Assembly (NCBI GenBank): GCA_963965975.1 | Contig: OZ014419.1 | Span: 6,776,150 to 6,840,149, forward strand | Direction: 5' to 3' | Source: Xestospongia bergquistia | Taxonomy: Eukaryota > Porifera > Demospongiae > Haplosclerida > Petrosiidae | DNA: 64,000 nucleotides | In this document: positions 119-3,100 of the stretch, one piece after another | How the letters are laid out: every line of letters starts with the position of its first letter | How positions within the stretch are numbered: the first letter of the stretch is position 1 | Translations under genes and position numbers: made by a program | Notes under the pieces: model-generated | Told to the model about the DNA's origin: nothing | The model's database searches: none | What the model saw: the letters and a program-made list of their open reading frames with translations, nothing else

Positions 119-3100
119 AAATGTTGGTAAGGCTGTTATATTGCATAGCAAAAGAATCAAATGTTATTAAAATGATTACAATAATTATATTTAGTATTAT
201 AGCAGATAATAATACAGTTCAAAATAATATGAAATGACTTTTACCATTCACAATGGTTTAGCTAATTATATTGTACAATATTTATTATATCAAAGATATC
301 CATTCTACATATTATTTTAAAAAGTTATACTGTGTTCTGTCAATATAGAATTAGCATGCAAGATGTTAAAAGAGATGTGTGTGTGTGTGTGATAACTTAC
401 CATGAGGGGTGGCAATAATAGGATTGATGTACCTCAAGAAGAAAAATCCACCAATAAAAGAATTGATTCGATCAGATAAGGCATCCGGAAACTTCTCCTG
501 TAATTTTTTTTAAAATTATAATTTGTTGAATATACCATTTATTTACAAGTATATTACAATACGTACTGATAAATTACAGCTGTATATACCTGTACTAAGA
601 CTTTGGTAGCTTTACATAGCCATCTTATACCATATGGTACTTTATCAATTGACATCTTAAGTTGCTCAAGTATTTTTAAAACAAAGTCTTCTAAAACTGG
701 AGCTCTTAAAAAGACAACAAGTTAAGAAAAACAATAACAACAATCATAATAATTATTGTAGTTTGTAAATTTTCAAGGATATTTTCTTGTATTCTTGTCT
801 GAACAACTGTGTTACTTTCAGCTTCATCCAAATATATACTAGACTCCTCAGTACGTATCACCTCTCCGTCCTCTATCATTTTCTGGTATATCTATAACAT
901 TCAAGTGTATATATATATATATATATTATAGACCAGAATTGAAGGACAAAAGAACAGAGCTCTTGCTTTGTTGCTGTTACTCCAAGTTTCACGCGTTATG
1001 CGATCATCAGACAGCTCTGATGATCGCATAACGCATGAAACTCGGAGTAACAGCAACAAAGCGAGAGCTCTGTTCTTTTGTCCTTCAATTCTGGTCTAAC
1101 CCGCTCTGTCTAAATGATATCGAGCACTCTTCAACAGACTTAGATACTTTAGTATATATATATACTAAAATATCTATAACATTCAAGTGTATATATATAT
1201 AATATATAAGTATAAAATAACATTACAAGGCAAAGGAGTTGTTAATATACCAGCAACAAACTTCAATAAGAAATTAGTCTTATATCCCCTGGACTTTAAA
1301 ACCATGGGACTATTAAGGTATAACATTCTGCTGCTAGTATGTTAGGTACATTGTTAAGAACAAAGATAGAGGATTATTAACTCTGTTACATTATTACCTT
1401 AAGAGGATCTATTTCCAGCGGTTCATCATAAACTGCTAACTGCTCGATAACATCTTCTAATGTAATACGTACAAATTCTTGACCTGGACCACGTCTGGAG
1501 AAGGAAGGAGAGAGAGGCAGGGAAGGGAGGTGTGTGTTATAATTATACAGTGCTATTACACAATATACCTGCAGTATGTTGTCATCATTCTTGTAATGGC
1601 TGTATTAGCTCTCATTAAACTGTTGATTTCTGTTGCTTCTTGTACTTCATATGTTAGTGCATACTAAAATAAATAAATGTTAATAAAAAGTTGTGTTAAA
1701 ATTATGAAATAAAATAAAGCAATGTCAAAAATTTGCAAAGTACTGTCAAAATTATAAAGGGATGTGTCAAAAATTTGTAAAGTACTGTCAAAATTATAAA
1801 GGGGCTGTGTCAAAAATTTGTAAAGTACTGTCAAAATTATAAAGGGCTGTGTCAAAAATTTGTAAAGTACTGTCAAAATTATAAAGGGGCCGTGTCAAAA
1901 ATTTGTAAAGTACTGTCAAAATTATAAAGGGGCTGTGACAAAAATTTGTAAAGTATTCTCATAATTATAAAGAGGAAATGTCAAAAAAATGGAAATAAGA
2001 GAGGCATTGTCAAAAAAATTAAAGATCAATGGCCTTAAGAAATACAGGACAATGTTTATTACTTTAGAAAACAATAGATGACCTCATAAACAATGTCTAG
2101 AAACTATAACATAGCTAGTATATTCTCCTCACCTCAAACATTGATAACAATAAATGTTCCTCTCTGTCTTCATACTGATTACCATATAATGAGAACATGA
2201 CAATCTGTAAGAGACCTACAAAATAGAATAGGCTCCTTAAATCCATTCAAATCACATTCCTATACTATACAAGTCTCATTCCAACTCTCAAGTCTCATTC
2301 TCATACATAGCTGATTACATATAATACTAAAGTCTCATTCCCAATTTTGATTCTCATTCTCACATTTAGCTCAAAAAATTAGACCTACAGTCTCATTCCC
2401 AGCATATTGACTTCATACTGAAGTCTCTATTCCCATACTTCAGTCTAATAACAGCAAATTAATTAATTATCTTACCATCAATCTCTTTCTGTGACACAAG
2501 TCGGGTTAGTTTTGCAATGTATTCTGGATTCGTTTGTAAGATCAAAAAAAGTTCTCCATAAACCTACAACACAACAATATATATCATCATTAATATTACA
2601 TAATTATTGTACTGACCTCTAGATTGTGGGTTTCTTTTAGCGACCCTGAGAGAGAGAGAGAGAGAGAGAAAGAGAGAGAGAGAGAGAGAGAAAGAGAGAG
2701 AGAGAGAGAGAGAGAGAGAGAGAGAGAGAGAGAGAGAGAGAGAGAGAGAGAGAGAGAGAGAGAGAGAGAGAGAGTGAGACGTTAAACCCTTATCATTTTA
2801 TAATCTTACCTGACATTTGAGGAACAACATTTAAATGTCTCTCTACTTCCTATAAAGAGAACATATTATAATATTAACACATTAATAGAAACAATATCTT
2901 CTAATAAATAATTCATTTGACTGATTAATTCAGGACCACTACACTATAACAATAAAACAACAACTAATTGACTCAAACTATAATGATACTATTAGAGTTC
3001 TGTCCATTAAGGGAATATACAATATACTACACTAAGGTTTCTGATGACAGCAACATGGTAGACTCATATGCCAAGTCAATTTGTTATCACTTAACAATAA

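Follow-up and report, generated by a model that had tools for sequence, protein, structure and literature searches.

What placed an almost perfect foldback with a hammerhead ribozyme-like core into a probable intron of the sponge Xestospongia bergquistia, and does that core act there? The foldback lies near the start of the window, by which we mean the whole 64,000-nucleotide stretch analysed (contig OZ014419.1, positions 6,776,150 to 6,840,149). A preliminary description gave it two 80-bp arms around a 6-base loop; the palindrome is real and these sizes are close, the arms (929-1011 and 1016-1098) being 83 nt long, 96% complementary and separated by a 4-nt spacer. With a probability of roughly 80%, we read it as a short insertion of a Penelope-like retroelement (PLE) made by two-strand, two-site target-primed reverse transcription, carrying a PLE-type hammerhead-like motif that is expected to be inert at this locus. 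The foldback itself is better explained, and is of more interest, as such a two-strand, two-site product. The element extends beyond the foldback into a 58-nt tail that the preliminary description lacked. Its parts and surroundings, numbered within the element from the A of AGCTGTC as +1, are as follows.

369..509, minus strand: open reading frame with the putative downstream RasGAP-like host exon, including a 12-residue RasGAP-like peptide
888..919, plus strand: direct repeat, left copy, 32 bp, perfect (spacing 282)
931..1016, minus strand: inverted arm, putative cDNA 1 of the PLE 5' region, from the proximal reverse transcription start (931 = +86) to the presumed RNA 5' end
973..1015, minus strand: hammerhead-like motif, from sequence reading and a descriptor match
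1015-1011/977-973, minus strand: stem I of the motif
1010-1004, minus strand: CTGATGA core
1003/991, minus strand: U-U at 10.1/11.1
1002-1000/994-992, minus strand: stem II
990-988, minus strand: GAA
987-985/981-979, minus strand: stem III
978, minus strand: H17, with the predicted cut between 978 and 977
1013-1016, minus strand: AGCT at the presumed RNA 5' end (+4 to +1)
1017..1096, plus strand: sense arm, putative cDNA 2 (+7 to +86), with a PLE-sense copy of the motif that lacks the 5' strand of stem I
1097..1154, plus strand: 58-nt tail between the proximal and distal reverse transcription starts (+87 to +144)
1170..1201, plus strand: direct repeat, right copy, 32 bp
1386..1604, minus strand: open reading frame with the putative upstream RasGAP-like host exon, with a Pfam RasGAP match below cutoff

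The host gene is probably RasGAP-like and encoded on the minus strand, with the element in the intron that follows the exon within 1386-1604. This frame matches Pfam RasGAP at E=0.032 (14.6 bits, below the cutoff of 28.3), and the frame at 369-509 holds a 12-residue peptide that we take to be RasGAP-like. The proposal that the motif is sense to a RasGAP pre-mRNA is likely on the strength of this sub-cutoff match and the putative RasGAP-like peptide. The 32-bp repeat around the window copy is longer than the 12-17 bp target site duplication (TSD) usual in the family. Between the tail and its right copy, at 1155-1169, lies TATATATATACTAAA, in which TACTAAA repeats the tail end TTTAGTA in reverse complement, perhaps as the stub of a second initiation. 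Elsewhere in the window, simple-repeat frames rich in RE/SL occupy 1-237, 2564-2797 and 3383-3696; together with the TA microsatellites around insertions, they suggest a microsatellite-rich genome.

Read from 1015 to 973 on the minus strand, the motif consists of GCTGT, CTGATGA, T, CGC, ATAAC, GCG, T, GAA, ACT, TGG, AGT, A and ACAGC, in which, as had been claimed, all invariant core positions are present (CUGANGA, GAA, A15.1-U16.1 and H17); stem III has 3 bp and a 3-nt loop. A descriptor composed after the motif had been seen (CTGANGA; stem II of at least 3 bp with an optional 10.1/11.1 mismatch; GAA; stem III of at least 3 bp with A15.1-U16.1; H17; stem I of at least 5 bp with G-U allowed) matched the window once, at minus 1015-973, and found nothing in 600 Mb of dinucleotide-matched random sequence, in which seven matches appeared when stem I was relaxed to at least 4 bp. 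The hammerhead-like core is therefore non-random and not a product of chance. The Rfam hammerhead models, put forward as a check on the motif region, spoke against it: they gave no match at E<=10 in window positions 600-1500 or 965-1017, and the whole window yielded nothing at Rfam gathering thresholds. A microRNA precursor was rejected as an identity for the foldback, the matches to mir-3910, MIR161 and mir-1285 being below cutoff and derived from the palindrome.

To place the element in a family, the sponge's own genome (146 Mb, 21 contigs) was searched with 931-1096, scoring the best 40 of 287 candidates, and these 40 places were 86-100% identical to the query. Thirty-nine of them were taken with flanks (the 40th, L048, was added later), and in all 39 the 58-nt tail adjoins the hairpin on one side and is followed by the target repeat wherever the target is not a microsatellite. 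A 29-mer core of the tail, with up to 3 mismatches, occurs at 227 places in the genome, and its reversed control at none. Among the first 30 tail loci, element sequence continues upstream of +1 from arm and tail in L042, L052, L056 and L064; that in L056 is an open frame (P0001) ending just before the sense arm, and a longer frame of 577 aa is found in L191. In the L191 frame YRDD presumably represents a reverse transcriptase motif, and in both frames we recognise what we take to be KDHK-type and KVYIGLTEHAFKQRYSNHM motifs and a Cys cluster, the latter followed in P0001 by a presumed GIY-YIG-like stretch. In an EN-containing PLE a single ORF encodes a telomerase-like reverse transcriptase and a GIY-YIG endonuclease. 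Pfam returned no reverse transcriptase or GIY-YIG match for the sponge ORF, with CHASE9 as the sole entry, below cutoff (E=0.028 for P0001, E=0.084 for L191), and NCBIfam and PDB sequence searches gave chance-level matches alone, so that the PLE name rests on the presumed motifs, the architecture and the published parallel. The architecture includes two features of EN-containing PLEs: a pLTR paired with an inverted one at the opposite end, one of the two bearing a tail, and TSDs at AT-rich sites. By eye, these TSDs measure about 12-17 bp at non-microsatellite sites such as L063, L097 and L107, in lengths that count TA at both ends, which may be templated.

Taken together, these features suggest that the element is most likely a PLE, which bears out the Penelope-like link drawn in the preliminary description, and the window copy is best read as a short, dead PLE insertion. 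The other class named there, the retrozyme, was rejected. Animal retrozymes hold their hammerhead in tandem repeats of 170-400 nt that give circular RNA; the sponge copies are dispersed foldbacks without tandem arrays, and same-strand neighbours within 100 nt occur in 3/180 loci, all of them fragments. The sole tandem hint noticed in short copies, by eye, comes from L091/L092, where +1 to +43 is partially repeated, directly and head-to-tail, ahead of the sense arm. The literature search found no report of this PLE type in sponges.

The positions at which copies begin and end follow a simple rule. In element numbering, a TATATAA box stands at -32, the predicted hammerhead cut falls after +39, and the two outer ends lie at +86 (proximal) and +144 (distal). 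Over all arms, 114 outer ends are proximal, 138 distal and 14 elsewhere, a surplus of distal ends that arises from the selection of most loci for a similar tail or protein. The junction set comprises 180 of the 188 loci with matches, eight repeats having been dropped (L039, L051, L057, L058, L060, L067, L070 and L080) and duplicate pairs such as L074/L075 and L091/L092 being still included. Its 89 head-to-head junctions join one distal to one proximal arm in 80 cases and like with like in none, with 9 unclassed; one tail-to-tail neighbour is also present. The 40 places chosen by hairpin, and so independently of the tail, repeat this pattern, with 39 pairing one distal and one proximal end and 1 unclassed. 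L191 reverses the allocation: its inverted side bears 38 nt of tail, and on the right, in L153, the same insertion terminates at the proximal site. At the inner side, 97/178 arms end at -1 to +3, the presumed RNA 5' end, and 2/178 at +40, the hammerhead cut (in L063 and L119). In a further set made up of the first 100 of the 227 places listed, an inverted arm is present in 61/99 parsed loci and absent in 38, several of which are long copies or mini-foldbacks; this set counts segmental duplicates separately (e.g. L050/L051, L074/L075 and L091/L092), and L057 was omitted in parsing although both its arms are present.

The arms of one copy also resemble each other. In 53 hairpins with both arms, compared over +12 to +82, the mean arm-to-arm distance is 2.66 within a copy against 4.04 between copies (1.13 against 2.39 at non-CpG sites), and the within-copy value is below all 2000 shuffles. 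An arm's own partner is its nearest or equal nearest relative in 24/53 hairpins, and in 33/53 without CpG; of the variants that are confined to a single hairpin, 5 are present in both of its arms and 38 in one arm alone. Judged by these comparisons, the two arms of a copy share a source. The shared variants can be explained by two cDNAs made from one RNA or from RNAs of one locus, and equally by snapback.

We propose that these observations reflect the following series of events. The PLE transcript would start at AGCUGUC (+1), 32 nt below the TATA box, a 5' end that we infer from the cDNA ends together with that box, and its positions 2-44 would hold a minimal hammerhead-like motif (type I, PLE-like), with a predicted cut after +39. 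At an AT-rich target, both strands would be cut about 12-17 bp apart. Reverse transcription would initiate at two internal sites near the RNA 5' end, one target end priming cDNA at the proximal site (+86) and the other at the distal site (+144). Both cDNAs would be extended back, in many cases as far as the RNA 5' end; joining of the cDNA 3' ends, often at AGCT, would follow. The expected product is a TSD, an inverted arm (86 nt), a sense arm (86 nt), a tail (58 nt) and the second TSD. Because CAGCTG is a palindrome, microhomology could also bias the junctions towards it.

Could the foldback instead have arisen from a single cDNA, whose 3' end snapped back and primed a copy of itself? Such self-priming fits the palindromic junctions and the variants shared between arms, and in L063 and L119 one arm stops at +40, a point at which pairing is possible between ACAGC and the stem I complement GCTGT. 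A snapback copy, however, should continue through the tail as far as the primer, and the second arm stops instead at the proximal start (80/89, with 0 like-with-like and 9 unclassed). Moreover, the unequal arms that reach upstream of +1 in L042, L087, L108 and L124 are not simple mutual copies, and on balance we consider self-priming unlikely. Far less probable still is a hairpin MITE or other non-autonomous hairpin master copied whole, in spite of the many near-identical 168-bp hairpins that it would account for, as rare variants are common to both arms of one copy, arm lengths differ from copy to copy and the same tail terminates ORF-bearing copies. A MITE or TIR DNA transposon was rejected because the tail is one-sided, leaving no terminal inverted repeat that spans the whole element, and because the TSD has no fixed length. 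We therefore retain the two-strand, two-site reading of the foldback and turn to its motif.

The preliminary description suggested that cleavage by the motif could affect the RasGAP intron or release a small RNA. Its position on the probable host-sense strand is compatible with such a role, but the complementary arm is transcribed before the motif in the host pre-mRNA, and the motif forms the 3' half of a 166-nt hairpin that folds at -148.2 kcal/mol. Locked in this hairpin, the motif is not expected to fold, which makes cleavage of the host intron unlikely; in addition, the tail of the element recurs at 227 places in the genome. An action on the host is thus highly improbable, and the window copy of the motif is expected from the folding model to be inert. 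A weightier possibility is that the hammerhead match is incidental, with +1 to +48 conserved as a promoter, a 5' UTR or a protein-binding RNA rod. The minimum-energy fold is a rod (-10.4 kcal/mol, against -4.8 kcal/mol for the hammerhead), rod pairs are kept in 94.1% of cells compared with 92.8% for the hammerhead, Rfam gives no match, and conservation covers the whole 5' part and not the core alone. Against this, the random expectation of the motif is very low (0 in 600 Mb), none of the sites variable in at least 8/125 rows falls in the core, and hammerheads in pLTRs are described for PLEs in the accessible parts of PMC11167929, PMC6155905 and PMC7761336. Double-changed cells point the same way, numbering 14 in hammerhead pairs against 6.3 in shuffles (1/500) and 6 in rod pairs against 3.0 (36/500), although 8/14 belong to stem II, where CpG decay may account for them, and the number of hammerhead pairs with a double change is not raised (3 vs 3.1 in shuffles). 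We regard an incidental match as doubtful, and so continue with the reading of the motif as PLE-type.

In the ORF-linked copies the motif stands on the sense strand at +2 to +44. It thus opens the presumed PLE transcript, a location from which minimal hammerheads are known in PLEs. Across 125 distinct rows, non-CpG variant rates are 1.5% in the core, 2.8% in the stems, 1.2% in the rest of the motif and 5.6% at +45 to +86, showing that the copies preserve the core as a hammerhead identity had been said to demand; 2.6% of randomly drawn site sets matched the core in conservation. The motif sites variable in at least 8/125 rows are N7 (+11), loop III (+33, +34), the stem II CpG sites with +22, +3 and +43, and the next most variable are +5 (7 rows) and the core site +9 (6 rows). 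In a set of 80 distinct gap-free 46-mers, used for pairing and covariation, 94.5%, 83.3% and 99.6% of cells are paired in stems I, II and III. The stem I pair +3/+43 is CG in 60 of the 80 rows, UG in 7, UA in 6 and unpaired in 7, while +5/+41 deviates in 8 rows, none of which retains the pair. As far as these rows can indicate, covariation rests mainly on one stem pair. It is thin because no clearly different PLE family turned up among 20 stretches of this genome: those that keep an element end share the same region, and the rest lack it.

Compared with canonical type I hammerheads, all three stems pair, U-U takes the place of G-C at 10.1-11.1, and the score stays below the Rfam cutoff, a comparison made with no known PLE hammerhead scored as a positive control. 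Rfam hammerhead models gave no match in the ORF-linked L056 or the older copy L151. Genome-wide, the best match to RF00163 reached 18.2 bits against a cutoff of 34 and lay elsewhere than the motif (73 of 11,891 candidates scored), and RF00008 had no match (68 of 15,058 candidates scored); control genomes gave sub-cutoff matches alone, so these genome searches are without a positive control. The T-T mismatch, rightly named as a weak point, is present as the U-U, yet it is not disqualifying, because axolotl HHR_Amex2 has one and still self-cleaves, 22% in 1 h (PMC7229834, as far as the accessible text goes). That ribozyme, from retrozyme Rtz_353, also shares the short helix III, but it is a canonical type I hammerhead in 350-bp tandem repeats and not in a PLE (PMC7229834). 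The minimal type I hammerheads of PLEs and Terminons likewise share a location in the PLE terminal region and weak peripheral stems; they usually lack helix III, whereas the sponge motif has its 3-bp stem III with a 3-nt loop and the U-U at the base of stem II (PMC6155905, PMC7761336, in part). In Anolis carolinensis, a PLE hammerhead is described as cleaving only with its protein (PMC11167929). By analogy, the axolotl and Anolis cases soften the evidence against a ribozyme, and we consider the sponge motif a plausible PLE-type hammerhead, present or past, with putative activity.

Because arm ends report the template 5' end and 2/178 lie at the cut, it appears that hammerhead-cleaved RNA is hardly used as a template; the +40 ends in L063 and L119 are explicable without cleavage, since stem I (GCTGT/ACAGC) offers a 5-nt microhomology, seen at the junction in L063 and presumed in L119. 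The scarcity of such ends agrees with the published account of the Anolis element, in whose accessible parts mutation of the hammerhead left insertion normal and the cut coincided with neither the start nor the end of any RNA-seq read (PMC11167929). A more specific reading, to which we give even odds, is that the foldbacks record PLE integration itself, with two reverse transcriptases of one RNP sharing the template region, one fixed proximally and one distally, one per target strand, and each copying a monomeric mRNA as far as its capped 5' end and running off there. If this were so, full-length copies would need a tandem or circular template, and the conserved motif, with cleaved RNA hardly a template, would have to act elsewhere in the cycle.

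The closest parallel is that same Anolis element, the Poseidon PLE PAc, which is reported to use two internal RNA sites, with a tail between them, for extension of both target strands at AT-rich targets. In the accessible text, it shares with the sponge element two internal reverse transcription starts near the transcript 5' end, cleavage and extension of both target strands, and a hammerhead upstream of the starts; by our own reading of the printed RNA, its 10.1/11.1 pair is likewise not G-C, with U after CUGAGGA and C before GAA (PMC11167929). The two differ in several ways. The tail of PAc is 30-40 nt against 58 nt here, its hammerhead straddles the start codon, unlike that of the sponge element, and its start sites seem alike between strands in vitro, whereas each classed sponge insertion uses one site per strand (PMC11167929). 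The PAc ORF belongs to the Penelope/Poseidon clade, while the sponge ORF has a Cys cluster, as in Neptune-like PLEs with their cysteine-rich domain (PMC11167929, PMC3846280). The one-site-per-strand rule itself returned no report by title or abstract in a largely open-access literature search.

Usual Penelope elements, as the accessible part of PMC3846280 describes them, have TSDs and pLTRs that include an inverted one at the 5' side; one member of this inverted pair bears a tail. Those of the rotifer Adineta vaga share with the sponge element the inverted pLTR at the 5' side, the optional tail on one of the pair, palindromic junctions, TSDs and a putative TATA box in the pLTR, but differ in their very low copy number and in TSDs of 8-10 bp in named cases, against about 12-17 here; the authors favoured self-priming, proposed there with an antisense template (PMC3846280). 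The inverted and tailed PLE ends and the retention of the hammerhead are questions named as open in the cited PLE papers, in the parts accessible. The sponge family offers dozens of readable insertions, with ends that follow a simple rule and arm ends that map the template 5' end, and through it both questions become direct bench tests.

Some copies depart from the common layout. In L065 (1310-1437), the inverted arm has internal template switches before the sense arm, with the +64..+88 and -1..+27 pieces apart, and in L069 (1496-1769) the foldback centre lies upstream of +1 (to -21/-14) and not at the usual AGCT, with extra CAGCTGAATACTAC copies. On contig C13, four similar copies of the PLE ORF (3369681-3371017, 3592682-3594018, 3796907-3798243 and 4007332-4008668) stand about 204-223 kb apart and are possibly one insertion within a large segmental duplication. 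Finally, positions 1-900 on the reverse strand of L191 hold a tandem array with a unit of roughly 133 bp, directly before the PLE insertion.
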